Assembly (NCBI GenBank): GCA_008330645.1 | Contig: VLTN01000002.1 | Location: 806,001-870,000 of the forward strand | DNA: 64,000 nucleotides | Reading direction: 5' to 3' | From: Cafeteria roenbergensis | Lineage: Eukaryota > Sar > Bigyra > Bicosoecida > Cafeteriaceae | In this document: one piece after another, positions 19,977 through 64,000 of the stretch | How positions within the stretch are numbered: the stretch's first letter is position 1 | Layout: the number at the start of each line of letters is the position of its first letter | Translations under genes and position numbers: made by a program | Notes under the pieces: generated by a model | What the model was told of the DNA's origin: nothing | The model's input: only the letters and a program-made list of their open reading frames with translations | The model's database searches: none

Positions 19977-21566
<1,590 letters not shown>

Positions 21567-22010: not shown

Positions 22011-25000
22011 TCAGTGCCCGCCGCGAAGCATTCGCTTCGCTGCCAGGGCTGTCGGAGCCCCGTCACTCTCGTCGCGCGGGCGCTTCGATGCGCCGCGAGA
22101 GTCTGGGTGCACCACTCCGGGCTGAGGCGAGAGTGGGCGTTCGTCCGCACCAGTGCGGGCGCCAGGCGCCTCGGAGTCGAACACGCCGAGCGCCGGCCAC
22201 GAGCTGCGACTGCTTGGGCGCGAGCCACCTGGCGACGCAGCCCCGATGCCAAGCCCGGCGTGGTCCAGCGGCTCAGCTGGGCAGCAAGCGCCAGAGCGGT
22301 CGGGCCCCACCGAGTCGGCTTCGCTCTGAGCCGTCGACTGATCGGCGCTGGCCGCATGGAGCTGCAACAGGGAGCGGCCCTGCTCATCGGCCAGGCTGCT
22401 GCGACTGCCCGGGATCTCTTCCGTGGGAGAGTCCCCAACAGGCAAGCCCAAGGTTGCGGCAGGGCCTGCTGGCTCGTCAGGCTTGGCTGCCTCAGAGAAG
22501 GCCCCAGGGTCCGCCGCGCCGCCGCCCAGCGCGACGAAGGAAACCCGGTGCCCGTCCTCTGCGCTGGTCGGGCCCTTGGCGCCTGCCGCGTCGTCGCAGG
22601 ACGACGCGTCGCGCCCGTGCAGGCGCACCCACAGGCGAACGCGGTCCCGCACGATGCCCTTCGCGGCGACCAGGCGCCGGAACAAGACGGCCTCCCAGCC
22701 GTGGTGCAGGGAGCAGTGCGCTTCCCGCACGGGGCAGCCGGTCGCGGGTCCAAAGGGCGACGGCGGCAGAGCATCTCGCTGAAGCGCAGCACGCGTGGCG
22801 CCGGGCACAGCCCCGTCCTCTGGGGAGCGCTCGAGGTCTGACAGGCAGGCAGCCCCGTCGGCGCCTGCCGCCGCGGCGACCAGGCCCACGCTGACGCTCC
22901 AGTGCGCCGGCTGCGGGAGGGAGCTCTCGGCGTACGCATACGCCGCATCCGGGTGCTGGGGGACCACTCGCGGGACGAGGCAGCGAGGCCTTCCGCAGGG
23001 CCGGGTGGGACGGGCTCTGCCTGACTCGTGGGGCTCTGCCTGTCCCATGGCCAACGCGGCGACGGGAATCACGACACGGCCTCGACTGTCGAGCACGGGG
23101 TCGGGGCCTGGCGACTGCGCTCCCATCGCTTGGGCGTGCCGCCGCACATGGGGCCTGTCTCCGGAGGGCGCAGTGCTTGCCGACCATGAGGTGGACGGGG
23201 CACCCACCCCGAGGTCACGGCCGCACGTGGCCAAGTGCCGCGGAAGCCGGCTCGCTAAGAAGGAGCGACCGCAAACCGGACAGCCCGCCTTGCTCACCAG
23301 CGCGGCCGGAACACCGGCCCCTCGCGGCGCGCGTGGAACGTCGGCGGGCTCCGTTTTGACGTGTTGCACGGCCTCCGGCGGCAACAACCCAGAACCTGTG
23401 CCGCCGTCGCCCGCAGCCAACGGCCTGGCTCGCCACGCCGGTGGGGGCTCGCTGCCGGCAAGGCGGCCGGGAACGCTTGGCCCACTTTGAGGCCCGTCTC
23501 GTGCGGCTGGCTCCGCAGCGCTAGGCGCAGAGCCATCGTCTGCGTCGTCATTGGCGTGGCAGTAGGAATGGCCGCGGCCGCCCTCGCTCGGCCCCGCCAA
23601 GCCCTCGACGCCGTTGCGGCCGTCGTCGGCGTTGTCGGAGTCGCTGTCGTCGTTCGGCACGCCCAGCGGCGGGGCTTCCGACTGAAGCTCTCCCAGCCCA
23701 AGGGTGTTGGCAACGGCCTTCAGCTCAAACTCGGCCAGCCGGTCCGTCGCGGCCTGGAGGCGGCGCCATGTCCACAGCAGCACAGCAATGAGCGCCAGCG
23801 GGTCCGATGGCAGCCCAGCCGGGAACGCCCCTGCCTGGTGTCCGGCGCTTGGCGGCTCTCGGACATGGCCGTTGGAAACAGGCGCCACGCTTCGGCGAAG
23901 GATGCTGCTGCCTAAGGGCCGGCGCGGCGGGGGCGGGGGCGCTCCTGCCGCTGCGGCCCCGCACGAATCCCGCTCGCGGCGCTGCCCCGGCGAGCCGCGT
24001 GCCGCGGCAGGGGCCAGGCTTCGCACAAGGGCTGCCTGTGCTGTGATAAGTCCGCAGGCGTCGCTGCAGTACCGCGAGCCGGGGCGGCAGCTTCCTTCAC
24101 AGCCGGGCCGCCCGCAGGCCGAGCCGTGCAGGGCGGAGCCGCGCACCGCCCCGGCGTCCATCGCCACGCTTCCCTGCCAGCCGCGGCCCCTGCCTTTGCT
24201 CCCCGGCCCTCTCTCCGCCGCTCCGGCGCCCCTCACAGTGCTGTCGACTGCAAAGCAGCGGCCGGACCAGCTGGGCATCACAAAGCCCTCGCGGTCGGGC
24301 GGGACCGCGGCCTCGAGCCGCTCCAGCGCGTCCAACGTATCCGGGGCGGCGGGTTGGCTCACCGCACGGGGCGCTCCAGCAGCGCCTGCTCGAGAGGGCG
24401 GGTGGCTCGCCTCTGCGCCGCGGCCAGCGAAACAGCCGCTGCTGGGCGGCTGCGAGGCACGGCGCTGGTCCGACTGGGGCCCGCCCTCGGGCGACGCGAC
24501 TGCCAACAGCGCGCACGCCTGCACGGCAAGTGTGGACCGAAGCTGCAACAGCCCGCGCCGTGGGGCGGAGTCCAGCACGACTGGTGCCACTGGAGGCACA
24601 CCGCCAGCCGCTTCGGACGAAGCGGAGGCCCCGCTCGGGTCCTTGCGGAACAAGCTGTGCGCCGGGACGGCCTCCTTAACGGCTGCTCCGAGCTTCAGCA
24701 GCGCAGAGTCTCCTGTTCGTGCGGCCACAGCTCTCGCGGAATCGAGCTGCTGGCCCCCGAGCAGCATGGCGTCGATCGCGTCGACGGCCTGCGCGATTCC
24801 GGGCACGCGGGCGATACGCCCAGTTTCGGGGTCCAACACGGCGCCCGTGTCGCGAAGAGCGGCCATCATCGCCAAAAGGTTGACTCGGCTTGGGCCGGTC
24901 GGAATGCCGACGGCGGCACGCGCGTCGGTCGCGTGCACTGCCGCCTCTGCTTCTGCGAGGGAGTCCGCAGCGCGAATCAGCAGCTCCGTGGTCCGACCCC

Positions 25001-28000
25001 GCATGGGGGCCGCGAGGGAGACGACGCTGCGTCGGGTCGCCGGGCCGAAGCCCTCAGATGCCTCCTCGACACGCTGCCGGGCCTGCTCGCCCTCCGCTAT
25101 GGAGCGGCGCAGGCGCTCAGTGCGCTCGTGGGGCTGCAGCGAGAGGATGTCCGGGCTTCGCAGCACTGCGGCAGCCACGGCGCTGCGTCCCCGGCGCGAG
25201 AGCAGCGGCATCGCATGGGCCCCGAGCGAGCCAGAGTCGCGGTCGTCGGCCGTCTTCGCGGCGCTGCGCGCTCGAGCAGTCGCCGGCGAGGCTGCGGCCT
25301 GAGGGGAGCTCGCAGTCGCCGCGGCGCTCCGTGCCTGCGCCGCTGACTGGTGCGCAGGCGGCAGCGCCGTGGCGGCCGCTGCTGCCCCTGATACGTCCTG
25401 CAGCCAAGACGCCGCCAGCCTGCCCTCCTGGGTCGCCTCCAGCGCCTTGGCAACCTCCACGCCGCCCATGCCGCACGCAAAGATGGACTCTTCCAGGGCG
25501 CGCAGCCGCTGCCGCGCCTCGGCCACGGTGGAGCTGGCATCGCCGTCGAGCTGCGCGAATGCCATTAGCAAGGCCGCACTCAGCTGCCAGTCCCAGTCGA
25601 GCAACTCCCTCACGTGGGACGGGAGGGCAGAGGAACCGTCGAGCGCGGGTCTCGCGGCTCGCCAGAGGCTGCTTCGTGCCGCCTCCGCGGCTTGGACAAC
25701 GCTCCCAACGCTCGGGAGGTGCACCGCCGCCTCAAGCAGCGTTGCAACGGTCGGGGCCAGACGCGCCGCCTGCTCCTTCGAGCGCGCTGTTGCCGTGCAA
25801 GCGGCAAGCACGCGATGGCTTGCCGGTACGAGGCGCCCTCGCTGGTAGGCATCGAGGTGCGATCCGTCAGTAGAGACTTCGAGGGCCATGCTGGCCGCCC
25901 GAATGACGGTGATGAGGGAACCAGCCTCGCTTGACGGCGGCACGCCCTGAGCCGACGAGCTGCCGCTCGCGGGTGCCTCCGCATCGCCGGGGCGGCTTCC
26001 TGCCTTGGCGGGCAGCGAGGCACTCGCGGCGGCCTGGAAGGCCCAGGCTGCATGCTGCAAGGCGGCACCTGTGCACCCCATGCTGCCCATGGCGCCGATG
26101 GCCTTGGCGCACGCCTCCGCAACAGCCAGGCGGACGGGCCTTGGTGCTCCTGCCGCAGGGATTCCGTGAGCTACACGCTGGCGAACCCACTGGGCGAGCA
26201 GGGACAGGTCGCCCTTCGGCGGGGGCGAGAGCGCCTGCTCGCTCTCAGGCACAGCGTCCTGCGCGGGCTTTGCGAGACCGTGCACGCAAAGCCACTCGAG
26301 GGCGATGGGGGCGGCCTGCGCCACGACAAAGCGGCGGCGGGCTGCGACTGCGGATGCTGCCTTGCCCGCCAGCTCCGAAACCGTCCCAAACGCCGAGCGC
26401 ACCACAGCATCCGCAGACGCGTCCGGCATCATTCCGCACACCATTCGGCGTGGGAGCGGGTTCAGGGTGCTGGCCACTCTGGAGAGCGCTGGTCTGGACG
26501 AGCCGCTGATGACTGTCTCAAGCTGCCCAAGAGCCCGCGCGACGCGACGCCACGGGGCCGGAAGTTTTGCCACGCCCGTCTCCAGCCGGACGGCTGCCAC
26601 GCGAAGCGCCGTCCTGGCCAGCATGGACGCGGATAGGCTGAAGACGGCGGCCAGACCATGGTGCGGTGGGTCGCACAGCATCGACTCGACGGCCGTGCGC
26701 GTGGGCCCCGGCCGAAAGCCCTCTATACCAAAGGCGCCGCACGGCGCCTCAGGGGAGCAAGGCGCGAGCGCGGGCCCAGAAGCCACAGCCGGGCAGGGGT
26801 CTGCCTCCGCGAGCTCTTCGGGCTCGCTTGCCGAGGTGACGGCCAGTGCGGGCGACGACGGGCCCAGCTGCAAGTGCAAGGCGCTGCACCAATCGGCGAC
26901 GGTCGGCAGGTTGGGGCTGAGGGGGCGGGTCTCCAGGTCCGAGAGGGAGCCAGAGAGCGGACGCACCAGGGCAGCACGCCGGACGAGCGCGATCGCAGGC
27001 ACGAGCGCCGGGTCGAGAGTCAGCGATGCAGCCGCCGCCGAAACTGACTCGTCTGACGCCGCCAGCAGCCATGGGTCGAGTCCCCAGTAGCGTTCAGGGC
27101 GGAGCGCTTGGCCGAGGAGCCCGCCGGCGTCCTCCCCTGCCGACGTTGCCCACCCGTCTTCGCACCGTAAGCACGCGGCAGCCACTGACGGCCAGTCGGG
27201 GCACGCCGCATCGCGCTCGCACGCGCGAGGCAGCTCCGCTCCTGTGAGCGGGTCTGCCACGAAGCAGGACAGCGGCATCCCCACCCCGCCGCTGCAGGCT
27301 CTCGAAAGCGGGGACACAGCAAGGGCGGGGCCTGAGAACGACGCCGAGGAGGTGCGGGCAAAGCCTTGCTCCGTCGACTCCCCAGCCAGCAGGCAGGCGA
27401 TGCTCTCCACGCTTGGCACGAGTGCTGGAGGCAGAGACGCGAACGTCGCCTGAGCGACGCGCCTCGCCTCCGCGGCAACAAGCGACGCCCACGACAGGCC
27501 CGGATCGCCAGGAAGGCAAGCCTGCTGCGGCTCCCCGGGCGCTGCGTGCGCAAGTGGCGATGCCGGCTCGCCGACCAAGGCAAGGACAGCATCGGCCAGC
27601 CCGCGGCTGCGCTGTTCGTGCGACCCGGGCGCTGCCGGCCGCTGCGCTAGCAGCGCTGCCTCGAGCGCGTTCAGCAGCTCTGGCGAGCGCTGTTGCTGCA
27701 CAGAGGCGCCGAAGGTCTTCGAGCGCTTCGGCCGCGGCCGGTCCCGAGAGCGTGTGCCGTTGATCAGCTCCACCACGGCCTCAGCCACAAGCACGGCGGC
27801 CTCAAGCGTGTCTCGCAGGTCTTGCCCCGCGCCGGCCAGAGCCAACAGATGCTGCCCACACTGAGAGCGCGGGCCCGGGGCCAACCCAGCTGCCTCTTCC
27901 AGCTGCGATGCCCGAGAGGCACCCGTCGCTGACGGCCAAGCCGACGATCGGATTGAGTCACTCGCGATGGCAAGCGCCCACAGAGCTTGCGAAGACGGCT

Positions 28001-30134
28001 GGGGCACGGGGCGGGCAGCAGGCGGCGGGCCGCCAGCCGCCTGCGAGGAGCTGTCACCTCCGCCGCTTGGGGCAGCCTCCGCCTGGTCCGGCTCCGGCAG
28101 TGGCTGCGCTGTCCCCGTGCGGAAGGCAACGAAGCGCTGCACAAGCCCCGCCCACACGGCTCGAGCCAGGCGCTCGACAGCAGGGTCAGAGGAAGCGCCC
28201 TTCACGAGTGACGCGCAAGCGTCGCGGTACTGGGGCCAGCAGCACACGGAGCACAGGGAGGGCTTGGTGGCCCTCGGCTCCAGCCCGGCCGCGATGCACT
28301 CGGCGTGATACCACAGCCCGCACCCGCCGCAGCGCCAGACCGGGGCCCCCTCGCGGGCGTTGTTGCAGCAGCCCGCCTGGGCCGTGCTCGGGTGGCACAT
28401 GAGGCAAGCGGCACTGGGGGGGTGGCGGTAGGGGTACCCGCACTGGCTCAGCCGCTTGGCCAGAAGCGGCGGGAACGCCCCGCCGGGCAGCGCGGGCCGG
28501 GGCAGGCCGGACCCTATGCAGCAGCGCAGCGCCCGCAGCGATGCCCGGAGCGCCAAGCCCGTAGGGTGGGGCCTGCTTGCAGGGGGCTCGACTGAGGAGG
28601 GGCGAACCGAGAGCACCCCGCCTCTCGCCGCGGCCGCAAGCTGCGCGAAGACCTCGTCGTCGCTCACGCGGCGCGCGTCGGCCCGCACGAAGCGCTGGGG
28701 GGCCCGGTCGGCTCCCTCGAGCGACTGCATGCGCGAGCGGAACACCACGGCGGCGTCGGAATCCACTGGTATGCCGCAGCTGATGCGGACACCGCGGGAG
28801 AGGAGGGAAGCGCTCTGCTCCCGGAGAGCAGGCCGCGGCTGCGCTCCCACCCGCACCTTCACCTCCTTCCTCAAGCGCCGCAGCCAAGCGCGCTTGGTCT
28901 GGGCTGCGCGCGCGCTTTTGAACGCATTGGCCAGCGCATCGCCGGGAGTTTCCTCGGACGCAGCCGTGGCCGCTTCACACACGACGGCCTCGTCGTGCGT
29001 GGGCGAGAGCCACCCAAGTGCGGCGTTGACGCTGCTCGACACCGCAGGGTCGCCACGTTGCGGGCGGCCTAGAGCGGCGCCTGCCTGCGCCCTGAGCCGG
29101 GCGAGCCTGCGCTGCGTCCAGGTCATGACCTGTGAGCCGTGTGCCAAGTGCAGCGCCTCGACGAGGCCATGGCTGGCCGCCGGGTTGGCGTCGTCCCCGA
29201 TCAGGTCAACAGCGAAGCACGACATGCTGGACAGCACGGCGACGGCAGTGTGACGGCTCGAATCGGCGGCGAGCCGCAGGGCGAGCCTGGCGTCCTGGGA
29301 GAGCGGGAGGGGCGGGCAATAGCGGGAGGCGAAGGCTGCCGACTTGGCCCCGGAGCCCGCCGCGCCAGACGAGTCTGCCGAGGGGCTGCTCGACTGAACC
29401 GTCCATGCCAGCGACCCCGACAGTTTAGCAACGCGCTGCGCTGCAAGAGCGGCCCACAGGCGCCCTGAAGGTGCGGCCTGCGCGTCCGCGCGAGCCTCCG
29501 GGAACTCCCGCGCCGCGACGGCCGGGAGGGACGGCGACGCTGCGGCGCTGGAAGGCACGCCGTGGCTGCCTGGCGGCGGACCCAAGGGAGGCGGCACGTG
29601 CGACTGCACGGGCAGACTCGGCGCTGTGTGAGGGGCCTGCGGAGTCGAATGCGGCGCGGCGTCCCAGCTCCTGCCCCGGCCGCGCGAGCCGCTGCCGCGA
29701 ATGGGGACCAGGGTCGACCCCGCGCCCAAGAAGGCGCGATGAGCGATGTCCAGTCCGTGCGGAAGCTGTGGCACAGAGCCAGACGGTGTCTGGACGTGCA
29801 TGGGCGGGGCCGCGGGTGGCGCGGACGAGGGCACCGCGGCAGACGACGCAGGGGTGCGATGCCTGGCCGTGAACTCTGCATACGAGTTCGCAGGCAGTGG
29901 CGCTGGCGCAGACGGCAGACTGAAAGGCTGCGACGAGGGCGAGCATTGGTATCCGCGCGACGTGGCGCCAGCGAGCGCCCCCGGCTGCACAGGCACCCGC
30001 GTCGCTAGCGGGTCGCCGGCGCGGAGTTCAGCGGCTGGGGACGTTGACGAGAGGTGCGTTGACACGGGGAGCGGGCAGGCCGCCTGGCCTGCAGACTCGG
30101 CGAGAGCGTGCTGCTGCTGCTGATGATGATGATG

Positions 30135-30169
<35 letters not shown>

Positions 30170-31235
30170 GGGAAACCGGGACAGAGCTGGAGGCGGAGTA
30201 GCCGCCCAAGCCTGGACCCAGGGGCATGCGCGCCGCGGCCATTGCTGCGTGCGCTGCGGACATCGTTCCGTAGGGCGAGGCGGCTCCCAGGCCTCGGGAG
30301 GTCGCGGAAATCGACGTCGAAGCCAGGACCGCGGGTTGCCAGGCCCCCGCTTGCGGGGAGATGCTCGGGAGTGCATGAGCCGAGCTCGCCGGCGGAGGGC
30401 GAGCCCCGCCGGTCGCCTCCAGGCCCAAAGTGGCCCCTGCCGGGGCTGTGCCGGTGTGCGACGGCTGGGCAGCATGTCGCCGGGCAGGCGGCTCGGAGGG
30501 GAGCTGCGTGGCAGGCTGCTGCGCCTGCTGGTAGGCCCCGGCATGATCCTGGGGGTACTGAATGCGTGAGACGGATGTGACTGTCAGAAGGTAGTTGGGG
30601 TGGCCCGAGAAGTGCTCCCTCAGCTTGCGCAGCGCCGAGTGTTGCGACGAGCGAAAAAGCCGGTGCCCGTTCACAGTGAGGATGACGTCTCCGGGGGCGA
30701 CTCCAGCCGCAGCGAGCGGTTGGGGGAGCTCACCGACCACCATAAACCCATGGCGCAGCGCCGCCGAGGAGCCGAGCCGCTGGGACAGCACGACGGGCTG
30801 GCAGCTGCGCCGCAACGCGTCGGTGGCGTCCGCAGCAACGACCGCCGCCCGCACCAGCCCGGCGCCGCTTCGCAGAGTAGGGCGGGCAATGAGGAGATTA
30901 ATCGCGCCTCCTTCGGCGGCGAGCCGCTCGGCCTCGGCCTGCAAGTCACGCAGGTGGCTGACAGGAGTGCCGTTCAGGGACAGCACGTGGTCGCCCGGCA
31001 TCAGCCCTTCGCTCAGCGAGGAAGCCTCCGTGACCATCGCGGGTCCGAAGGGACACTGCTGTGCAGCCTGGAATGGGCTATGCGGGGCGCCAGAGCTGTC
31101 GGGGTGCCGAGGGGCAAGCGTCACGAGCGCAGCTTCCTCAGGGCTGCAGACCTCCAGGTCCGGCAAGAGCCACGGCGAGGGATGACGGCCACCGCGGCCC
31201 TGCTGACGGGCGTCTTGCGCACCACCTGGGTCCAT
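22011..31235 (-). CDS. Giant PDZ-PHD protein with CFP1/CXXC1-type C-terminus (putative COMPASS subunit)
   Basis: One uninterrupted frame of about 3,074 residues from the ATG at 31235 (an in-frame start at 31376 is possible). Residues 65-110 look like a PDZ domain (EGLMPGDHVLSLNG) and 160-215 like a second (AAAGVAPGDVILTVNGHRLF). A Gln/His run follows near 355-375. Around 935-1005 is a C4HC3 PHD finger: CLMC, CGGC, WYHAEC and CSVC. After some 1,300 Ala-rich residues comes the CFP1-type end in the same order as in human CXXC1: CGRPGCEGSCRPGSRYCSDA (about 2370), a predicted helix LLWTWRRLQAATDRLAEFEL, an acidic DDSDSDNADDG, CPVCGRSFLASRLPRHLATC (about 2650) and HCSLHHGWEAVL with RDRVRLWVRLHG (about 2835). 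CFP1/Spp1 brings the Set1 H3K4 methyltransferase to chromatin. I see no CXXC DNA-binding domain, as in yeast Spp1. The family call for the C-terminus is good; the function of the rest is unknown. In-frame introns cannot be ruled out. Confidence 0.75.
30111..30168 (+). repeat. CTG/ATG trinucleotide repeat coding a Gln/His run
   Basis: Plus-strand CTG and ATG triplets; on the coding minus strand they are CAG and CAT and encode a Gln run broken by His inside the giant CFP1-like protein. Prone to length change. Confidence 0.9.
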
Positions 31236-32005: not shown

Positions 32006-35000
32006 ATGGCTGCCGCGCCAGCCCGCAGACGGGGCCGCAAGCCTCGCGCGGCGCCGCAGCCCAAAGCGCTGTGGGAGGAGGCCCGCCTCGTCGACCCCTA
32101 CGCGCTGAGCATTCCAGCTGCGGCTCGCCCTGCAGGTGAGCACGAGTGCGCGCGTGCCGCGCGGCCAGCGAGGGCGAGGCTGCGCACATTTGAACCCCGG
32201 CGGCTCCCCAACGCGCCGCTGCCACCGCTGCGACAGCTGCGCGCCCCTGTCAAGCTTGCCGCAGGCTCCAGAAAGCGCAACGACGCCACAAACCCGCGGG
32301 ACCTGTTTGGGCTAGGGGAGGACGCCGGAGGGGTGTGGAGCAACCCGCCAAGCTGCATTTCTTCCCTCGGTCCGGACCCACGGGCGCACACACGGGTGGC
32401 GGCTCAGAGGCCGTGCGGCCTCTACAACCTAGGCGCCACCTGCTATATGAATTCGCTCCTGCAGGCGCTGTACTTTTGCCTCGATTTCCGGTGCGCGCTG
32501 TTCGAGTGGGTTCGGTCGCAAGGCCCCGTGCGGCCAGGCACTCTGGAGGACCAGGAGCCGCGGCCGTTGGACACGCCTGCGGCTTGCCGGCAGCGGGCGC
32601 AGCTCCGTGGGCTTGCGCTCGTATTCGCGCACCTGGGCGGGAACGAAAGGTCGTACCACAAACCAGCCTACTTCGCCCGGCTGCTTCAGCTGCCCGGGCA
32701 CGTGCAGCAAGACGTCAGCGAGTTCGCGCGGAAGCTCCTCGAGCATGTGGAGGTCGTTATCCGAAAGCAGCCGCGAGCGCCCGGCCAGCCGGCCCCGGAG
32801 TGAGCCTCTCGCTGCGGGTGCCGCACTTGGTCGTTGGCTCCCCAATCCCCTCCTCCCCCAGGCCCAGGCCCAGGCCTGCCCAACCGCGCGTGCATGGTGA
32901 CGCCGTGCCCGGCTCACGCAGGGGCCCTGCGCTTGTCCGGCCCTCCCTCGCCCTCACCTCCCCTGGCCCCCTCGCTCTGTCATCCCTCGCCCTCACCTCC
33001 CCTGGCCCCCTCGCTCTGCCCTGCCCGCGCGCGCTCGCTCGCTCGCAGCAACTTCGTGTCGCGTTTGTTCGAGGGAAGGCACGCTTACGTGACCCGGTGC
33101 CTGCATTGCGGCTACAGCAATCCCCCGGAGAGCTCCTTCCTGGACCTGCAGGTCCCCGTCAAGGGGTGCCCCTCGCTGCAAACCGCCCTGCAACGGTCGC
33201 TCGAGCCAAGCTTCCTCAGCGACGACAACCAGTACGCCTGCAGCCGCTGCGGCTGCAAGCGGGACGCCGTCAGGTTCCAGGAGCTCCGTCGCATGCCACC
33301 CTTGCTCACGATCGGGTTCGAGCGCTTCGCCTTCGACCTGCAGACCCTGGAGCGGCGCAAGGCCAGCGACTCGGTGTCGGTGCGTTCGCTGCGGCCGCGG
33401 CGCGGCGCGTGCTTCGCAGCGCGGCACTGGGACTCGCTCCCGTCTGGTCAGCTGCTGCTCGAGCAGGCCGCCCGAGCTCACCCCGCGCTTGCTGCGCCGA
33501 TGAGTCCGCCTGCCGCCCGCGCTCCTCGCAGATTCCAGATGTGCTGGACGTGCGCGCCGTTGCAACGGCGGCCGCAACGATGCCAGGCAGCGAGGCTGCG
33601 CCGGGCGACGCTGCGGGGTGCACCCCTGTCCAGGAGGCGCGCGCTGGCGCTGCGGCGGCAGACCGCGCGGCTGACACGCGCCTTTGGCAGCAATGGGCCC
33701 AGCTGCGGCAGCGCGACGGTGCGCCTGCAGCAGCCGCAAAGCCGAATCCCGCCGCCTCGGCTGGTGGCTCTGGGCCAGCTCCGCACGACCTGCCGGCCGC
33801 TGGTCCGCTCGACGACGCAGTGTACGAGCTCGTCGCCGTGATTCACCACAAGGGGACATCCGCCCGGTCGGGCCACTACGTGGTGGACGTGTGGGACGCT
33901 GAGCGCGCGCGCTGGTGGAGCATCGACGACGACGCGGTGTCCCTTGTGGCGCCGGCGGCGCCCGGCTTGGGGGGCTCGGCGGCGCGCGCCCGGGACAGCG
34001 GGAGGCAAGCCAAGACGTCGGCAGGGGGGGCCGCGGACGCGGAGGCTTCGCCGGACGTGCTCGTCCTGAGCGACGACGAGGACCAGGATGGGCCCTTGGC
34101 TGGCGGCGCGACGGTGAAGGCCCGCGCCGAAGGCGGACCGGCTGGCGACTTCAGCGACGACGACGTCGCCGGCGAGGCGAGAGCTGACGGCGACGGGGCC
34201 GATGGAGCGGATGACGAAGACGACGATGACATTGACGACGACGACGATGACGACGACGACGCCAGCGAGTGCTCTGCGCACAAGGGCGTCAGGGCCAGAA
34301 CGAACAGGGCAGGGCCAAAACGGGCATCCAAGCGAGCCCGCGCCTCGCCTGGCAGGGCCGGCCCTCGAGCCTCGGCCGCCCCGCGAGTCCCAGCTTCGGC
34401 GACAGGTCCCCAAGACTACGCGATGCTCAGCCCCAGCGAGTGGGCAGCGCGGCGGCCACACCCCATCCTGCGTTCGTCGGGCTCCCGCAACTCTTACATC
34501 TTGCTGTATCGCAAGGCCGAGCGAGACCGCGCTGCTCAGTGGAGGCGCGACTGCGCCGAGGCAGACGCGGCCGGCCGTGCGCAGCCGGCTCTGCTGCCCC
34601 CGCCAGCGTCCCCCTGGACGCCTGCTGGGGCCCCCCTGGGCGCAAAGGACGAGCGACTTCCCGCTGCTGTGGTGCCCGACTCCTTCCAGGCTGCCGTGGC
34701 GGCCTCCAATGCCGGCTTGGCTTCGGCCCGCGTCGGCTACGGGGCTGCATTTGAGTCGCTGTGGCGCCAAGTGAACGCTCGTCGCGCGCTGTACAGGACG
34801 CTATGGCGATCCGACCCGGCTGGGTGTGCCAAGGGAGCTGGTCCCGCGCCCCCCAATGCCGCTCTTGCGCCGTATGTGAAGCTCGCGGCCGACCCCGACG
34901 CACCTCCGCGGCTTCCGGACGCGCCCGCCGGCGCGCTCGACTTTGCATGGATTCCGACCAAGACCCTGCGCGCGTGGATCCAAGGCCAGGCTCCCAGGCC

Positions 35001-35152
35001 TTCTACGGGGAGCAGCGCCGCTGCTGGGGCAACCCCTGCCTCCGGGCCAGTGCCCGGGTCGGCCTCTGCCGCTGGCGCTGTGCCGCAAGAGTCTGACGAG
35101 CTGCCCGGCCTCGGCAGCGAGCTGGATGCCTTGGGCGGTAGACCTTGCTCGT

Positions 35153-35188
<36 letters not shown>

Positions 35189-36488
35189 GTGGCGGAGAAG
35201 GCGGTGGCCGCAGCAGGGAACACAGCGCCGTCGCGTTCCACGAGCTTCGCGAGGAGATGGCAGGGCTTGACTTGGGCCCCGACCTGTGGCAGGACGGGTT
35301 CCATCGCGACGGCTCTCAATCGGCCTTTGACTCGCTGCAAGGTTCGGCGGCGGGAGGGCCGTTGCCCCCCCAGGCCGTTGGCCGCTTCAAGCTGTTGAGC
35401 GCGAGCGCTGTGCGCGCCCTCACCGACCCTGCCTGCGCGCTGCGAGCCATCGAGGGTGCCGGCGCCGCTGCCCTGGACAGGTGCTGGGTGCCTCCGCCTG
35501 CGGACCTGCCGGCAGGACTGCCCAACCCGAGCAAGCGGCCACGGGGTCCGGACGAGGACGCGGCTGCCCCGGCCACTGCGAAGAGCTCGCCTGCGTGGCT
35601 GTCCTTCACCGCTGCCGACCTCGGTCCCAGTATGCTTGCTGCTCCCGGGACGCCGGACTCGTGCCTGGTGCCGGCTCCAGCGTTCTGGGACCAGAGCGGG
35701 GTGGAGGCGTTTCGGCGCGTGCTCCAGGCGCGGGGAGCCGCGCTTCGCGACGCCGCCGAGCTGGTCTCCGCGTTGCAGACCATCCCCCCGATGCAGCCGG
35801 GCTCGCTGGCGCCTGAGGAGCTTGGTCGCTGGATGTGGGTGTCTCGGCGGTGGGCGCAGGACGCCAAGACGTTCCTGGCGTTCCGCGACCAGATCCGCCG
35901 ACGCGTCCGGAGTGGCCAAGGTGCAGCGGCCACGGCAGGGAGGGGTGCTGGGATGGGCCGAGCGGGAGCCGGTGCGGCCGGGGCCGGCGACGACCCGGAC
36001 CTTGCGGCCGCCATCGCGGCGAGTCTGGCGGACGCGGGAGCCATGGCGGCGGCAGGGGAAGATGCGGGCGCATGCAGCGACGCGGGAAGTGAAGAGGGGG
36101 GCAGCAGCGAGGCCTCCGCGCCCGGAGCAGTCACCCCCGCAGCTGTGGCGGCGTATGCCAACGCTGGCCTCAAGCTGAAGCAGCCGCCCCTCGACAGGAG
36201 CCCGACCGAAGCCATCACCACGGTCCACGGCATGCTATCGCCTTCCGGCCAGGCCCGCCGGCTGGTGCCCGCTCGCACGCTCGAGTTGCTGGTGGGGCTC
36301 GCTTGGCGCTTGCAGGGCGCGCGGCAGATCGCGCTTGGCGCCGACCGCCAACAGCGGGAATCGGCATCAAGCCCTGGCACAGGCCACGCTGCGGACGACG
36401 CCAGCTGCATTGGATTGGACAAGGAGGAGGAGGACGGCCCGAGCGGCGCCGCTGGCGCGGGGAGCGATGCCCGCATCGACCTGTGCGA

Positions 36489-36520
<32 letters not shown>

Positions 36521-38088
36521 ATGATGCCGTGTCTTGCTCTCTGCCTGACAGCGCTGCAAGCCCAAAGGCGAGCAGGCCAATCGGGCGGAGCAACGCGGGC
36601 GTGCCGGTGGAGCGACTGCTCGCCGCCTTGGACGTCTTGGAGGCAGACGATGCGGCCTGGCCGGGCCATCTTGACGGGCAGCGGGTGGCAGAGTTCATCC
36701 AGGCGCAACTGGGGCACGGAGCTGCGGCAGCGACGGCCGCAATGCCCTCGTGGGCGCCGGCGGTGACCGTGTTCGACGCCTCGGCAAAGGAGTGTGCCAA
36801 GACCCGGTCCAAGGGAAAGGCGGATAGGGCTGCTCAGGACGAGGCCAAGCGTGAACGCGCCGCAGAGGCAAGCACGCCTGCGCTGAAATCGCTCAAGTCG
36901 CGCACCGGCGGGCTGCCTCCAGTGCCGCAGGCCTTTGACCGGGCCGGGCTGGGAGGGCTCCCCTGCGGCTTGTACCGCGTTGTGCCGGGCGCGTGGCTCG
37001 CTCGCTGGCGGGCGTTCCTGGCTTCCACCGACGCGGCAAAGCCAACCGTCGGCGAGGCGCTGCAGCTCCGCGAGGGCTGTTTCGCGCGCTTGCGCTCGGG
37101 GGCCACCCTGCTGCCAACGCATGCGCTCGTGTTCCTCGCGCAGACTGCACCGCTGTGCGACCCGCTGCAATCCAGGGGCGCGACCGCGGCTCCGACTGTG
37201 CTTGCTCTCCCTGACCCCGTCGTGTGCGGCCTGCCTCGTCGCTCAGGCGGCTGCCACGGCCTCGTGGCTGAGGCCTCGCAGGCCGCGGCCGCCGGGCTGG
37301 AGCTGCTCGAGGTGGAGCTGCTCAGGGAGACGGAGTGGCGCGCCCTTGCGGGCATGTACGGCTTCGTCAGTCCAGAGACCGGCGTGTCCGAAAGCGAGGC
37401 GCTCTGGGCTCGCTTGGACGCGGCTGAGAGGGAGGGCGCTGCGCCGGAGGCCAGCGACTGGGCCAGCCTCTCCGCCCCACTGGTCGTCGTGGCGGAAGCC
37501 GATCGATTTGCGGCCCCCGCCCACAGACGAGCCTCGGCCGGCGGCAAGGCGTCGCTTTGCTGGTCCTGCTGGCCGCCCGTGGACGCCAAGCTGACGCGGG
37601 AGCGCCTCGAGGCCGAGGCCGCGCGCCGGCGAGGGTTCCAGTCTGCAAGCTTCACCATCACCCGGGTGCCCCCGGCGGAGAACGCGCGGGCCGTCAGCTC
37701 GGGCGGCGCCGTCGAGCTGTCTGCGGCCGGCAGGCCGAAACGGAGAAGCTCGCGCGCTGGCTGGGCGTCCGGAAAAGTCACGGCCAGCAGCAGCGATCGG
37801 GCCGGCATGCTGGTGTACCGTGCGCTCAGCTGCATGGACATCGACGCCGGGGGCACGCTGTACTTTGGCGGAGCCGCCCTCGTGTCCAACCTCCCCATCG
37901 GCGAGCAAGGCGTGCCTCCGGGTGCCACGCTCTTCTACGCCAGCGATGACCCCAGCGGCGGGGAGTTTGACCTCTCCGCTGCACTGGCAGCCTCCGCAGA
38001 CAGCGGAGGCGGCGAGCTGGGTCATCGCGCCCTTTCCAGCGATGCTTCGGCGGGGTTTGCCTCCGCTGCGTTCGCGACCTTCGCGTGA
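32006..38088 (+). CDS. USP48: USP48-like ubiquitin carboxyl-terminal hydrolase (peptidase C19)
   Basis: Exons 32006-32135, 32265-32799, 33049-33379 and 33532-38088 give about 1,850 residues. The Cys box GLYNLGATCYMNSLLQ has Cys103; the His box GTSARSGHYVVDVW has His447 and WWSIDDDA follows. Between them are the zinc Cys pairs CLHCG and CSRCGCK. NPRDLFGLGEDAGGVW before the Cys box matches the USP48 lead-in. Further on: an acidic Asp run near 555, a 10-Ser run, a ubiquitin-interacting motif DDPDLAAAIAASLAD near 1151, a DUSP-like GLYRVVPGAWLARWRAFL near 1476, and a ubiquitin-like end around 1770-1810 (LYFGGAALVSNLPIGEQGV). The family cleaves ubiquitin from proteins, in USP48's case including nuclear and histone H2A targets. 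The first intron (129 bases, no stop, multiple of three) is inferred from its GTGAGC donor and GCCGCAG acceptor; it may be retained. Length is nearly twice human USP48. Confidence 0.85.
32944..33018 (+). repeat. Tandem duplication in the third USP48-like intron's acceptor side
   Basis: Two near-identical 36-base pyrimidine-rich copies (32944-32979 and 32983-33018), period 39, end 30 bases before the acceptor at 33048. They double the pyrimidine tract of the 249-base intron 32800-33048. Confidence 0.9.
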
Positions 38089-42653: not shown

Positions 42654-45600
42654 TCACTCGGCAAGCAACGAAGCGCGGTCTGCGTCGTAGTGGGCCATGC
42701 CGGGGCACAGCACCGCGACGGGAGCGCCCTGCCTGCCCTCGGCGCCTGCGCGAGCCGCGAGCGCCATGTGGACGCTGCGGACTGCGGCTGCGCTGGCGCC
42801 GCCCACGGGCACAAGGACCACCAGCTGCGGCGGCGGGCCGACCGGCGGCTTGCCTTGGCTGCCAGCGCCGCCGCTTCCGAATACGCTGGCGAGGAGTGCC
42901 GCGCCCCGCGACGCAATGTCGCTGCCAGCTCCAGAAGGCCCACACGGTTCCCCGCCCGGGACGGGTTTGCCCGCGCTTGCGGCGGCTGCCGCACAGCCGA
43001 GCAGCGACTCCGGGAGGCAGTGGTCGTCTCCTGCGGGGCGGTAGCAAGCGAGAGCGCGACAACAGCGGCGGGGCGGTAGCAAGCGAGAGCGCGGCAACAG
43101 CGGCGGCACGCGAGCGGCGGAACACAGTCAAGGCGAGCTCGCAACAAGGGCAGCAAACTCGCAAGCGGCGGCGCCGCGGCCACCTGCCGTCGCCTCGCGC
43201 ACGCACGCGTCTCACCCTCAAGCGACCACTTGGGCACCCGCCAGCCCCCCGCAAGTCCGGTGTCGAGGTCCTCCTGCACCTGCGCGGAAGCCGCTGCCGA
43301 AGCGAGCACCCGGCTTGCGGTGGCTGCCATCCGCAGCGCTCCTCCGAACATGCCGCCGGTGCCAGCCTGCTGCGAGGCGGCGCGCTCGCGCGCTGCTCGC
43401 TCCCGCTGGTCCGCGGCCCGCACCCCCGGCAGCGCAGCGCCCCAGCACCGGGACGCGGCGGCCTCTCGCAGCCGAGCGAGCAAAAGCGACGAGGCGCTGG
43501 CAACGACGGCTCTGCCGGCACGCGCCTCGCGCGACTCCGGCCCCGCCCCGTCGGCGGCGACGAGCAGCGCGACATCGTCGCGGCACAGCCAAGGCAGCAT
43601 CCGGAGCAGGGCCTCTCGCTGCAGCTCTGCTCGCGGCCTGCGCCGGCGGGACGCAACAGGCTCAGCCTCCTGCTCCCCAGGCTCCTCACTCCCGGCTGGC
43701 GCTCCTGCCTCGTCGGGTCGCTCTCTGCCGCCGCCGCCGCCGCTGCCGCCGCGGTCTGCTGCCGCGACCTCCGCTCCAGCGGCCCCGCTTGCTCCTTCGT
43801 CGCCCCGGGACGCGAGGAGACCCCACGGCAGCGCGAGCGTGGCTCCCTGCAGAGCCGATGCGAACGCCGCCTCGCCAAAGGGCGCCGCTCGCCGCAGCCC
43901 GGCCTCGGGCCACTCCTGGGTGGCCCCCGCCCCCGCCCCCGCCCCCGCCTCCGCCTCCGCCTCCGCCTCCGCCTCCGCTGCCGCTGCAGCCGCCATCCAG
44001 GTGGCAGGGGCGGCCACCTGGTAGGCCGCCGCGGCCAGGTCCACGGCGGCGGCCACCGCCGCAGCGGCCTCCATCAGCTGACCGGCACTGCTGTCCCGGC
44101 CGCGCGGAGGCTCCCCGCCGCCCTGTTTCCCCTCCGAGGGTGCACCGTCGGGCAGGGCAGCAGAGGCCGGCGCTTGCGTCGCGCTGCTGGCTGTGAGCCC
44201 GGCCTCGACCTTCGCCAGCATCGCGCACGGGCCCTCAAGCGGCGACAGGCGGGCCACCCCCTCCAAGTGCCTCGCCGCCTCGCTGACCGTTTCCGCAGCC
44301 TCTGCAGCTGCCACTGCGTCGGCAAACTTCGCGCTCATGCTCGCGAGGCCGCGGGCCTGCCCGGCGGCCCAGCGCGCCGGAATCGCGGGGGCGACGGCCT
44401 GGCCCCAGTCGCTGCCGTCGAAGACGTCAACCACCGGCTCTGCCTCGAGAGCGAGCGCGAACAGCACGGCGGCAACGGCTCGAAACGCGCCGCGCACTTG
44501 CGCAGGAACATCCATCGTGCCGGCCGTGACGGCGCGCGCGATTCGGGCGGCTTTGGCAAACGCCTCCAGAAGCGCCGCAGCAGCCTCAGCCAGGGCAGGA
44601 AGCTGCGTCCACGGGCCGAAGGCGGGCGCGCGCGCCCGCAGCGCTGCCGCCGCCGCTGCCAGCGCCTCGTCCTCCTCGTCCCTGGCCAGGAGGCCGTCCG
44701 GCAGGCTGTCCGACGACGCGACAGAGACCCCTGCGGCGTGCGTCGACCGTGCGGAGGCATCGCCTGCAGCGTCAGAACCGCCTTCCTGGCTCGTTGCCTC
44801 ACCTCGCTGAGAGAGCGCCGAGCCGGCTGACCGGACGGCCTCGCATGCCACTGCCACCGCGGCTGCAGGCGACGCAAGCCAGAAGGCGGACCACAGCGCA
44901 CCACCAGCCGCGCCGGGCCCCGATGACGTGGCGTCCCCGGCCGGCAGCTGCACCAGCTCGGGGCCGTCAGGCCACAGCGAGGCCAGAAGGGACCGCAGGC
45001 CGCGGCCCAGAGACCTGCCGGGGTGCAGCAGGGCGGACTCGTCCGCGGCGGCCTCCCAGAGGAGCCGCAGACGGCGAGCGACGCGGCCAGGCGTGCTGCA
45101 GCGACGCGGACTGCCGAGGGAGACCGCGCCGTCCGGGCCAAGCACTGACGCCCTCGCAGTCGCCGCAAGCACCATGTCAACGACAGGGCGCTTGCACAGC
45201 GGCAGCAACGACACCCCCGCGTCCAGCGTCGCGTCCACCAGCACGAGCGCCGTCCGCAGCCGCGGCATGCGCCCGGACGCCGCATCCTCCAGCACGGCGT
45301 CCGTCGCGGCAGAGCCGCACGACGAAGTGGCGCTGTCCAGCACGGACTCCCCGGCGCCCTCGTCCACGCGCGCTCCCGGCAGCGCAGGCCCGCCGTGCGG
45401 CCCCGAAGGGCCCCGCGGCGGCGATTCGGGCGGGCTGCTCGCGGCCCCGGCGACCGCGGCTGCCACCCTGACGTGTGCCTCCCTCGCGGCGCGGCGCAGC
45501 AGCAGCCTGGCCCGCGCCGGCCCGTTCAGCGCCGCCTCCTCCGGCCACCTGCTCTCCGTCCAGCCCTCAAGCGCGGCGCCGGCGTCGTCGAGCCGGCTGC

Positions 45601-57439: not shown

Positions 57440-59257
57440 ATGGCTGCCCACGGCCGGAAGGTGGTGCCACGGCAGCTGCCGACGGCCGGAGTCCCGGCGA
57501 CGGGGACGTTCGGCAGTGAGTTGCGCCACCGCGGGGCCGGAACGAGCGGAACGCGCGAGGGCAGGCAGGCTGGGGAAGCAGGGGGGTGTTCCTTTGCATC
57601 AGGCTGACCGCCGCCAGCGGCCCCTGCTTCCTGTGCTGTGGCTGAACCGAAGCGCGCAAGCCTGCGGCACGGTCTGCCTCGCGCTGCGCCGGCCCCCGCG
57701 GCACCCAGTGCCCCTGACAGCCCGCGGCCCGGAACCGTCCCCTGCGCGTGCGCCTCTGCAGTGTCAAACCCCATGCCGAACCACCGGGCCGCGAGGGAGG
57801 CCGCTGACAGCGATGCAGACATGGGCGGCCCAGGGCTTGCAGCGAGCGCGTCGGCAACCGCGGCCCACGCCGCCGCAGCGGGGAGCTCTTCCTCGTCCGC
57901 CGCCGCTGCGGCTGCATCGAGTGCCGCCGGGGCCGCGGCTGCGGCGCCGGATGTGTCTCACCCGGAGCAGGTCAGGCAAGTGCTCCACGTCGAGTGGGAC
58001 AGCGCGTCGGGCACGTTCAAGGGCTTGCCAGCCGCGTGGGGGGGCGTGCTCCCCCCGGGAGTGTCGACGCACGAGGTCCAGGACTCCTCCTTGCCGGGTG
58101 GCGCAGCTGCTGCCCCTGGGACGCGCGAGGCTCTCGCCAAGGCCAAGGAGGACGCCTATAGCCTGTGGATCAGCACGCCTTACGACGTGAAGCGGGTGCA
58201 CCACGTCACCGTGGACCCCGCCACCGCAACGATCCAGGGCCTCCCCGACAGCTGGGCTGCGATGCTGGCGTCCTCGGGCATCTCCAAGGAGCAGGTGGCC
58301 GCCCACCCGCAACAGGTGCTGCGCGCTCTCCGCACGCACATGGAAGGCCCCGTGCCCGCTCTGCCCACCCGCGCCTCGTACGAGCGCACCGTCACGGAGG
58401 CGTCCATCATCACGCCAGGCGATCCCAGGCACATTTTCGCCGCCGAGAAGCAGATCGGGGCCGGCGCCAGCGGCACCGTGTTCCTGGCCAGCGACACTCG
58501 CACGGGCGAGCGGGTCGCGATCAAGATGGCCCGCGCGTCGCAGCTGTCCTCCCTCAAGTACGAGATCGCCCTGCAGAAGATGAGCGCGCACCCGGCCATC
58601 GTGCGCCTGCGGGAGGCGTATCTTTGCACCGACTGGCTGTGGCTCGTCATGGAGTACGTGCCGGGCGGCACGCTGACGGAGACGCTCGGGCCGACCATCG
58701 ACTTCCCTGAGCCTTGCATCGCGTGCGTGTGCAAGGAGCTGGCCTCGGCCCTCGCCCACATGCACCGCAAGGGGCTGCTTCACAGGGACCTCAAGTCCGA
58801 CAACGTGCTGGTCTCGTTCGAGGGCGAGACCAAGCTCGCGGACTTTGGCTTCGCCGCGGGGCTGGTGCGTGAGAAGATGCACCGCACCACGGTGTGCGGC
58901 ACGCATGCCTGGATGGCCCCGGAGGTGGTGAACGGCGAGGCGTACGACGGCAAGGCCGACGTCTGGAGCCTCGGAATCACGTTGCTCGAGTGCGCAGACG
59001 GCGTCCCGCCCTACCTCGACTTGCCGCCGCTCAAGGCCATGCTCGCCATCACGACCGCGGACCCTCCCAAGCTCGCGTCGCCCGAGCGCTGGTCCAAGGA
59101 GTTCAACCACTTTCTCCGGAGCTGCCTGCAGCGCGAGCCCAAGAAGCGCCCGTCCGCCGAGCAGCTGCTCATGCACCCTTTCGTCCGAAAAGCCTGCTCC
59201 AAGGCCGAGTTCGCGACGTTCGCGTCCTACATTCTCCGGGCGCGCGGCAAGACCTGA
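57440..59257 (+). CDS. PAK/STE20-family protein kinase with two CRIB domains
   Basis: Exons 57440-57515 and 57762-59257 give about 523 residues; the intron has a GTGAGT donor and CTCTGCAG acceptor and keeps frame. An in-frame ATG at 57773 is an alternative start. After an Ala/Ser-rich lead come two Cdc42/Rac-binding (CRIB) motifs: SHPEQVRQVLHVEWD with FKGLPAAW, and STPYDVKRVHHVTVD with IQGLPDSW, the second followed by the PAK-like SSGISKEQV. The kinase domain has KQIGAGASGTVFLA, VAIK (Lys280), HRDLKSDNVLV (Asp368), LADFGFAAGL and the STE20 signature CGTHAWMAPEVVNG, ending RPSAEQLLMHPFV. PAKs are released from autoinhibition when GTP-bound Rho GTPases bind the CRIB and then control the cytoskeleton. 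All catalytic residues are present. Confidence 0.93.
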
Positions 59258-61170: not shown

Positions 61171-62873
61171 ATGGCAAGCTCGTCTGCTGCTGCCGCTGCA
61201 AGCGCGGCGGGGGCAGTGGCCTCTGCGCCGGTTGAGGACGAGCGCCCTGAGGTCTCGCCGTGAGCAAGTTTCAATTTTTCAAGCGCCGCATGCTCGAGCC
61301 GCCGCAGGCCGCGTCCTCGGGGCCCGCCCCTTGCTGCCAAAGCAAACTTGGCTGCGACCTGCGAAAACGATTTTCCGTCGCGCCCGTGGCCATTCCGCGT
61401 TCGTCGCGCCCCTGCTCGTGCTGCCGTGCAAGTGCGCAGGGACACGCTGCCCTGGGTCGAGAAGTACCGTCCCGCGACCATGGACGACCTCATTGCGCAC
61501 AAGGACATCCTGGGCACGAGTGAGCAGGCTGCCGTGGTTGCGCCAGGTGCTGCGCTGCGGTGCGGCGCTGCTACCTGGACGCCCCTCAACCAATGCCCAT
61601 CGCGCGCACGGCCCTGCCACCCACCACGCCTTGCGCAGTCAACCGCCTCATCGACAACGGCAAGCTTCCCCACTTGCTCTTCTACGGGCCCCCCGGCACC
61701 GGGAAAACCAGCACCATTCTGGCTTGCGCCAAGCGCCTGCACGGCGAGAGAGGCTGGAAATCGATGACCTTGGTCCTCAACGCCTCCGACGACCGCGGCA
61801 TCGGCGTTGTCCGTGACCAGATCAAGGGCTTTGCTGGCACAAAGAAGCTCTTTTCCACGGGTGTCAAGCTGGTCATTTTGGACGAGGCGGACGCCATGAC
61901 CAGCGATGCCCAGTTCGCGCTTCGGCGAGGTGAGCCAGGCACGGCGGGAGCTGCTGCCTCGAGTGCGGTCCTGCTTGGTCGCCCCGCGCGCCCGGCCGCC
62001 ATTGGAGACCCGCTCGCTCAGCCGTCCTGGTGCGCTGCTCCCCATCCGCCGCCTCCTTCGCAGTCATCGAGAAGTACACGAAGAACACGCGCTTCTGCCT
62101 CATCTGCAACTACGTCTCCAGGATCATCCCAGCCCTGCAGTCGCGTTGCACGCGGTTCCGGTTCCCCCCTCTCAAGCGCTCCGAAATGGAAGCGCGCCTT
62201 CGCGAGATCATCGACCTTGAACGGTGAGAGTGCTCCCCCCGGAGAGCTTCGCAGCAGGCGCCCGCTTGACTTGCCGAGGGCCCTTGGGCAAGCACTTGTG
62301 TCCCGTAGCAATTGGCGCTGTGGATGGTGGTGTGGGATGGCGTTCGCGCGCAGGGTCAATGCGACGGAGACTGGAGTCCAGGCGATTCTGCGGCTCGCTC
62401 AGGGCGACATGCGCCGAGTCCTCAACGTGCTGCAGGCGACGTCGTTGGGATTCGACACCGTCGACGAAGCCTCGGTTTACGCCTGCACTGGAGATCCGTC
62501 GCCCAAAGACATCCGCCTCATCACGCAGGCGTTGCTGACCTCAAGCGTGGCAGAGACCTTCGAGCTGATTCGCGACATGCAGGCGTCGCGCGGGCTCGCT
62601 CTTGGGGACATTATGCAAGGTGTCGCCAGGGTGATGGAGCGAGCCGTCCAGCCTGCAAAGGCCAAGGCGGCCTTGTTCTCGGCCTTGTCGCGAATTGAGG
62701 TTCGCCTCGCATCGGGAACGCCAGACAAGCACCAAGTCGGAGCCCTGATCGCAGCCTTTGTACAGATGAGGGAACTGCTCGAGGACGACGGGGATGACGA
62801 AGACGACGGCGGCGAGGTGCTGGTCGCAGAGGAAGGTGGGCCGACCAGCTCGTCGTCAGCACAGTCTTCGTGA
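61171..62873 (+). CDS. RFC5: Replication factor C small subunit 5 (yeast Rfc3 type)
   Basis: Five exons (61171-61259, 61440-61519, 61639-61929, 62064-62223, 62354-62873) give about 379 residues. RFC loads the PCNA clamp at primer ends with ATP. After an Ala-rich lead: [40 protein letters not shown] (Walker A), [40 protein letters not shown] (Walker B), [20 protein letters not shown] (the SRC arginine-finger motif), [13 protein letters not shown] and [12 protein letters not shown]. The IKGFA and ILACAK details favour RFC5 over RFC2 or RFC4. Each junction rebuilds a conserved codon, including GTINRLI and [13 protein letters not shown]. The tail is acidic then Ser-rich. It has four introns of 119-180 bases, the most in the window. 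Confidence 0.95.
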
Positions 62874-64000
62874 CGCTCCAGCACAAACTCCGTGAATTGC
62901 TTGTGCATTTTTCGTGCGTGGTCGCTATGCCCTTTGCTCCAAGCTCAAGTGCGTCCCAGAGCGCTGGCCGCCCAAAATCGCCTACGTAGTCGGCGATGGT
63001 CGACGCTGAAAAGTTCCGATGACTCTCTGCTTTAATCTGCCGGCCAGCGCCCCCGGCCTGACAACTTGGGCAGCGGATTGATGGCTTGGTCACGGCTTCA
63101 TGCGCAGTGGATGGGATGGCAAACCGTAGACGCCTGCTTTTGTCTCCAGATCTGGGATGTGGTGTTGATGTTGATGGCAAGCCCTTGGAATGCGAGAAGG
63201 CCTTGAAGCCAAGTTTCGAATAAAGACGCGTGGGGTCGGCGCTTGACGGCCAAACTGTGGACCACTCGCACTGGTCGGGTCCACGGCATGTCGTGCCCCT
63301 GGTGTTGCTCGCTCGTCTGTGAGGACCAATCCAATGACCTCGTCATCGAAGCGCTGCATCGTTTGGGAGCAACGATGATGCCGGATCTTTTCCGATACTG
63401 CAAGCCCTTACTGTCGCCATGGAGAGGAAGACGCCCTTTCTACGGCCAAATGCGCGCACTGCTCAAAGTCTGTGGTATATACAACGGGCTGTCTGCAACG
63501 TAAAAGTGTTCCCATTTGCAAGCGCATTCAAGTGCATTGGCAATGCGGACTGACGGTGTGAGACAAAATCTAGGACGCAGTCGCTCTTCACGCACGCAAC
63601 TGGAGCGTAGAACCAGACAACAAACACAACCCAGCAGGCACTCCACTGACACTCGCTGTAGCACACTGCTGTGAGAGGCTGACGCAGTTGGCTGTCAGTC
63701 CGAGCTGGCTCGAGAACGAGCAAGCGTTGATCACAACTTCGGGTGGTGTGTGCGAATGCTAGCAAACCCAAAGCGGCGCCAGCAAGTGGTATTGGCAGAA
63801 GCAACGGGGCATCGGCGGCCCAGGAGCTCGACCACGGATTACGCAATCGGCAAGACGTGAGCGCTTGGGTCAATTCGACTCGCTGGCAGTCTGCCGCCCC
63901 CAGTGCGAGATCGAGCACCAGCTGCCAAGGGCGGAAACAAGGATATCACACACAACCGACGCTACGGCCCGGGGGCCATTTCTACGATGGCTTGCTGCAT
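62874..64000. other. Lower-GC right end without a recognised gene
   Basis: From just after the RFC5 stop, GC falls from about 70% to roughly 50% by my line counts. Frames of 60-190 codons exist on both strands (for example plus 63243-63503 and minus 63463-63918), but none shows a motif I know. No terminal or target-site repeat is visible within the window. It may be the edge of an element, a decayed repeat or simply AT-richer intergenic DNA. Confidence 0.4.

Follow-up and report, generated by a model that had tools for sequence, protein, structure and literature searches.

A long open frame in Cafeteria roenbergensis that may join a tandem PDZ module to the zinc-binding parts of a CFP1/Spp1 relative

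CFP1 helps to decide where the Set1 complex acts, and the locus described here raises the question of whether a protein of this type can also carry PDZ domains. The locus lies in 64,000 nucleotides of Cafeteria roenbergensis (assembly GCA_008330645.1, contig VLTN01000002.1, positions 806,001 to 870,000 of the forward strand), a stretch called the window below and used for all coordinates. An earlier reading made from the letters alone (the sequence-only reading) had proposed that one open frame here begins with two PDZ-like domains and ends like CXXC1/CFP1. The frame is indeed uninterrupted, running on the minus strand from 31376 to 22011 with 3121 codons, a stop and no internal stop (protein P0001; 3074 amino acids from the first ATG at 31235). 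The interpretation that we favour, with moderate confidence, is that its sequence encodes a much-expanded relative of CFP1/Spp1 that gained a tandem PDZ module at the N-terminus; homology to CFP1/Spp1, taken by itself, appears quite probable.

The case for CFP1 lies in the C-terminus. By reading, residues 2421–2894 hold a zinc site, a helix-like stretch, an acidic stretch and two further zinc sites, which is the CXXC1/CFP1 order previously claimed for them. The first zinc site (24054–24116, on the minus strand like every feature of this gene) is C2421-x4-C2426-x10-C2437-x3-C2441 and includes the letters RYCSDACG; a YCS zinc site of this kind is one that we take to belong to the SID. This block is identical to human CFP1, whose letters in all of these comparisons were not taken from a database record, at 13 of 26 residues (BLASTP 3e-4 for the single comparison), and the yeast Spp1 chain 6j2p has the same ligand spacing with His as the fourth ligand. 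A helix-like stretch, weakly predicted from the letters, follows at 23700–23801 (residues 2526–2559), and then the acidic stretch NDDSDSDNADDG at 23619–23654 (residues 2575–2586). The C2HC finger at 23223–23282, C2699-x2-C-x11-H-x3-C2718, has the spacing of human CFP1 and is matched by the Pfam family zf-C2HC_2 at 29 bits (cut-off 27), a generic finger type. Between it and the last zinc site, CGRPRCLVPRVVPQH at 22953–22997 may by eye be a remnant of the CFP1 block found there, a block for which the test was weak. The last site, at 22620–22736, resembles motif II of the RID: C2881-x6-C2888-x2-H2891-x2-W2894, followed by E and then RVRLWVRL, as in the animal C-x6-C-x2-H-x2-W-E followed by RVR-x-W. 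In fungal Cfp1 this motif is C-x3-[KR]-x2-C-x2-H-x2-W, a novel zinc finger that docks on RbBP5 (PMC7145517, partial text).

The ligand patterns go beyond what chance would give. The protein has one copy each of C-x4-C-x10-C-x3-C (at 2421), C-x2-C-x11-H-x3-C (at 2699) and C-x6-C-x2-H-x2-W (at 2881), and the three together have the order and exact spacing of human CFP1. They appeared in 0, 1 and 1 of 2000 shuffled copies of the protein, respectively, while the six-frame translation of the window (127,996 residues) holds them 2, 2 and 1 times, the gene's own included. All three in order are found in only one of the six window frames, the one that holds the PDZ/CFP1-like gene.

Alignments to the human segment point in the same direction. 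A single-sequence profile of that segment gave the C-terminus 9.1 bits, above every one of 2000 local shuffles (5.9 at most) and every upstream window (−1.1 at most), and it matched first the SID-like block and then the RID-like block, the latter in register with human 206–239. BLASTP gave a gapped 24% match ending in the last zinc site (0.008), and an alignment with cheap gaps scored 148, where 4 x 1000 shuffles reached no more than 108. When the stretch after the SID-like site was aligned in an insert-tolerant way at three gap costs, the scores of 57.0, 92.4 and 85.7 exceeded the maxima of 36.0, 43.8 and 51.6 seen in 102 control windows, which were made from the rest of the protein (residues up to 2300).

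Several results weigh against assignment to CFP1. The human letters did not come from a database record, and the ligand patterns were fixed after the alignment had been viewed. The curated profile PF12269 (CpG_bind_C), searched at an expectation value (E) of up to 10, matched neither the whole protein nor five C-terminal fragments nor four insert-free joins, a negative limited by the HMMER filters, which discard most weak matches; the human segment, as a control, gave 369.6 bits. The C2HC finger alone scored −0.7 bits against the human-segment profile and was aligned to the wrong part. Gapped alignments shift the last block (GCP falls on human CGCPL) and leave the two C2HC fingers unaligned, and in them the middle and last blocks stand in registers other than those of the ligand patterns. 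At the three gap costs, the block between the SID-like site and the last knuckle was reached by 6, 22 and 27 of 2000 protein shuffles and by 7, 30 and 39 of 2000 human-segment shuffles; depending on gap cost and shuffle kind, the whole post-SID stretch was beaten by 0–1 of 2000, and residues 2780–2930 and 2866–2925 each by 0–3 of 2000. Within motif II, Glu2885 stands where fungal Cfp1 has Lys/Arg, with an Arg one position earlier, and the four other motif residues (two Cys, one His, one Trp) keep the exact spacing. For RID motif I (XCG-hydrophobic) the protein offers no clean counterpart: the CG is retained in VCGR (2701) and PCGR (2793), the hydrophobic residue in neither. AlphaFold, run on residues 2690–2934 without an alignment, returned a mean predicted local distance difference test (pLDDT) score of 35.8, too low for use.

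These results lend some weight to a different chromatin protein, a scaffold or reader outside COMPASS in which PDZ domains, a PHD finger and generic zinc knuckles came together and the likeness to CFP1 arose by convergence or reflects a YCS treble clef alone. The unmatched PF12269 fits such a protein, as do the weak middle block and the C2HC finger, which is generic and, as a fragment, matches Sgf11 weakly as well; the YCS treble clef is also present in other nuclear proteins (the DIDO/PHF3 group). The C-terminal domain of a true CFP1 may, moreover, have a place in another complex: the CFP-1 of C. elegans uses its cysteine-rich C-terminus to bind SIN-3 as well (PMC6868398, partial text), because of which a SIN3 partner is possible, by analogy, for the Cafeteria protein. 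On the other hand, two distant blocks match a single known protein, following its order and with exact ligand spacing, and C-x6-C-x2-H-x2-W is the arrangement that in the Cfp1 RID is described as a novel zinc finger (PMC7145517, partial text). We regard a protein outside COMPASS as unlikely, and we retain the CFP1/Spp1 relative, an assignment drawn from the spacing of the zinc ligands, together with two weak local alignments, rather than from a curated profile.

Searches of solved structures with the C-termini did not reach CFP1. The C-terminus of the Cafeteria protein retrieved four weak rows from the PDB, including two for the Rad18 zinc finger, and no CFP1. With the human C-terminus by itself as query and E up to 10, neither CFP1 nor Spp1 chains were returned, although the PDB includes Spp1 chains that are 342 and 391 residues long, so that sequence comparison with a single C-terminus overlooks even accepted members. 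Among 600 pattern matches to P0001 and 12 to the human C-terminus in viral contigs, no relative was confirmed.

The PHD finger proposed for the middle of the protein lies at 28242–28406. By reading against the PHD consensus, its Cys4-His-Cys3 set is complete, with all eight ligands in place (C991-x2-C994-x21-C1016-x2-C1019-x4-H1024-x2-C1027-x14-C1042-x2-C1045), and Trp1022 stands at what is presumably the cage Trp site of H3K4me3 readers. The core is identical to the human CFP1 PHD at 6 of 13 positions. In a phmmer search of the PDB, the best row for this region was 1wee (E 0.0039), followed by a HORMA-domain protein, TAF3 and CXXC1 (9c0o, E 0.11). Against this, PF00628 stayed under its cut-off of 24, with 14.9 bits for the protein in full and 21.3 for an 81-residue fragment, and AlphaFold on residues 975–1075 without an alignment gave a mean pLDDT of 47.7, again too low for use.

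The N-terminal part is firmer. On the whole protein, Pfam found two stretches each of PDZ_6 (33.5 bits, cut-off 27), PDZ (25.4, cut-off 23.2) and PDZ_2 (26, under the cut-off of 27), and by the scores above cut-off the predicted product is a PDZ-domain protein. The first domain, at 30882–31013 (residues 122–165), is covered by PDZ and PDZ_2, with its N-terminal strands upstream; the core of the second, at 30642–30719 (residues 220–245), is covered by PDZ_6, and by eye the domain ends near residue 275. Both also emerge from a PDB search with residues 78–275, which gave the tandem PDZ of aq_1964 at 9.5e-5 along with other PDZ chains. Three NCBIfam families matched, all in the PDZ region and all under cut-off. 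The nearest solved sequences to the pair are those of aq_1964, a site-2 protease homologue, and of DegP/DegQ; unlike these proteases, the Cafeteria protein has no protease domain that Pfam could find. A Gln/His run, as noted in the sequence-only reading, follows at 30109–30168 (residues ~404–423) and is regarded as a low-complexity linker. Of the profiles that the sequence-only reading had named for its own verification, PDZ came out above its cut-off, PHD below and zf-CpG_bind_C (PF12269) without a match; in the last 700 residues, where that reading had staked its claim on a profile match, it was saved only by the generic C2HC finger, with PF12269 itself absent. That reading is borne out in part: a single frame does carry PDZ at its start and a CFP1-like order of zinc ligands at its end.

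A joint PDZ and CFP1-like protein presupposes that the frame is one gene. It might instead be an open frame with several products, through separate transcripts or the exons of two genes, so that the PDZ and CFP1-like parts never share a chain. At ~72% guanine plus cytosine (GC), stops are rare (about 1 per 80–110 codons in the other frames), and genes in the window do contain introns. A codon log-odds score, for which 15 spans from neighbouring genes served as the training set, was computed over 31 windows of 100 codons each and was highest in the PDZ/CFP1-like frame in 23 windows; in the other 8, another frame was equal or higher, including residues 260–660 and 2660–2760, which counts against a single gene. 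Those 8 windows start at residues −40, 260, 360, 460, 560, 1560, 1960 and 2660, with near ties at 1560 and 1960, and the one at 2660 contains the C2HC finger. Nevertheless, the other five frames carry 29, 36, 38, 40 and 34 stops over the same interval, and at their rate some 30–40 would be expected in 3122 codons, where none is internal; with no internal stop, no upstream gene can end within the frame. The gene has 6 GTGAG donors and no GTAAG, and none of the six is in frame with a pyrimidine-rich acceptor 60–400 bases downstream, while other donors, including 27 GTGCG sites, were untried. Several products from this frame seem improbable to us, and the PDZ/CFP1-like frame is likely one long exon.

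If the gene encodes one protein, its best reading is a PHD, SID and RID layout without CXXC and with a PDZ pair in addition. No CXXC domain was found by one CXXC pattern or by Pfam. CFP1 binds SET1, in its N-terminal part, through the SID and docks on RbBP5 through the RID zinc site; its PHD is a reader of H3K4me3, and in vertebrates its CXXC attaches to unmethylated DNA (PMC7145517, partial text). By the same scheme, the SID-like zinc site here would bind a Set1 enzyme in the enzyme's N-terminal part, docking on RbBP5/Swd1 would fall to the RID-like site and the PHD would read the histone H3 tail. The PDZ pair would grip the tail of a partner protein and thereby bring that partner to the methyltransferase of H3 lysine 4 (H3K4), or recruit the enzyme, and the long Ala/Ser/Pro-rich stretches between the parts would be flexible linkers. 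The protein would in this way be a targeting subunit of the Set1 complex to which a tandem PDZ was added and from which CXXC is absent; its membership in COMPASS and the role of its PDZ pair are what we infer. It is conceivable, and we say so with reserve, that a COMPASS core subunit here has its own PDZ pair and that, in this lineage, binding to the tails of signalling, membrane or transcription partners directs H3K4 methylation, instead of or besides binding to CpG DNA. A possible bipartite nuclear-localisation signal, KRPRDESDGAPTALAAKR, lies at the end of the protein, at 22032–22085 (residues 3098–3115), judged against the bipartite consensus.

Known proteins share parts of this layout. 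With animal CFP1/CXXC1, the protein shares a PHD-like finger, the YCSD-type zinc site, a helix-like stretch with an acidic one and the C2HC finger, and it differs in its two N-terminal PDZ domains, in the lack of a detected CXXC and in the failure of PF12269; it is also some five to nine times longer than the 350–660 amino acids that the sequence-only reading had given for CFP1. Spp1/Cps40 and fungal Cfp1 are not known to have a PDZ. With these fungal proteins the Cafeteria protein has in common a PHD-like finger followed by the SID zinc site, at equal ligand spacing (6j2p), and the ligand spacing of RID zinc motif II, whose Lys/Arg it does not keep, and it far exceeds the Spp1 chains of the PDB (342 and 391 residues) and Chaetomium Cfp1, whose numbering reaches 508 (PMC7145517, partial text). 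CXXC is absent in both budding and fission yeast, and yeast Spp1 has the order PHD, SID, RID (same source, in part). The MLL-AF6 leukaemia fusion is another point of comparison. AF6 has a PDZ domain. In the fusion, a protein on the H3K4 methyltransferase side is likewise joined to a PDZ-bearing protein; unlike the germline CFP1-type gene here, that fusion is a disease translocation of the enzyme itself (PMC8497272, partial text). In the titles and abstract beginnings of the papers listed by literature searches, no PDZ-bearing protein of CFP1 or COMPASS type, and no such recruitment route, was found described; eukaryotic sequence collections lay outside this scope.

The surroundings are those of a GC-rich piece of a eukaryotic genome, with 0.60–0.77 GC per 2 kb and ~70% overall, as in Cafeteria at large, where GC is ~70% with 1.67–1.89 introns per gene (PMC6972860, partial text). 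Pfam was run on 26 further open stretches in batches of 8, 10 and 8, with one gene present twice in two versions. It recognised glutathione synthase, ATG7, an AMP-binding enzyme, an aminotransferase, a PP1-type phosphatase, an arginine methyltransferase, a ubiquitin hydrolase, a photolyase, PP2C, an RCC1 protein, COQ5, a replication factor C subunit, a SHIPPO repeat protein and, at 57611–59257, a kinase with a p21-Rho-binding domain and a PAK-like architecture. No family was assigned to 5 of 8, 1 of 10 and 1 of 8 stretches in the respective batches, and one more in the third had a sub-threshold match only. Junctions in the aminotransferase, arginine methyltransferase and ATG7 genes were read by eye as introns of ~150–300 bases that start with GTGAG and end with CGCAG. 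The domains of neighbours are stretched as well (GSH_synthase, 175 residues over 106 profile positions; ThiF, 230 over 107; UCH, 86 over 44), and unspliced introns could explain part of this. The arginine methyltransferase gene (19977–21123, intron-split) lies ~0.9 kb past the stop of the PDZ/CFP1-like gene on the same strand, and both could be chromatin-related. The ubiquitin hydrolase match falls in a 1530-amino-acid open stretch at 33496–38085, the best part of which covers only positions 197–240 of the 254-position UCH profile, and no earlier part of the domain was seen in the scanned stretches. Near-perfect tandem repeats of about two copies occur at 32944–33018 (39-base unit) and 43033–43106 (35-base unit). 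At 61500–64000, a region that takes in the replication factor C gene and continues past it, GC declines from ~0.68 to 0.54 (63500–63749), with 0.61 in the final 250 bases. Searches of the window with Rfam (at gathering threshold), for transfer RNAs and for phage DNA gave no match.

The combination of PDZ domains with CFP1-type zinc parts would be new if it is expressed as one protein. A CFP1 that lacks CXXC and carries PDZ would show that the targeting module of the complex is exchangeable, and would make it possible to ask directly, in a distant protist, how H3K4 methylation is recruited. Such a protein would mean, further, that a curated profile can miss insert-rich proteins of CFP1 type, in which case surveys of COMPASS across eukaryotes may undercount them.

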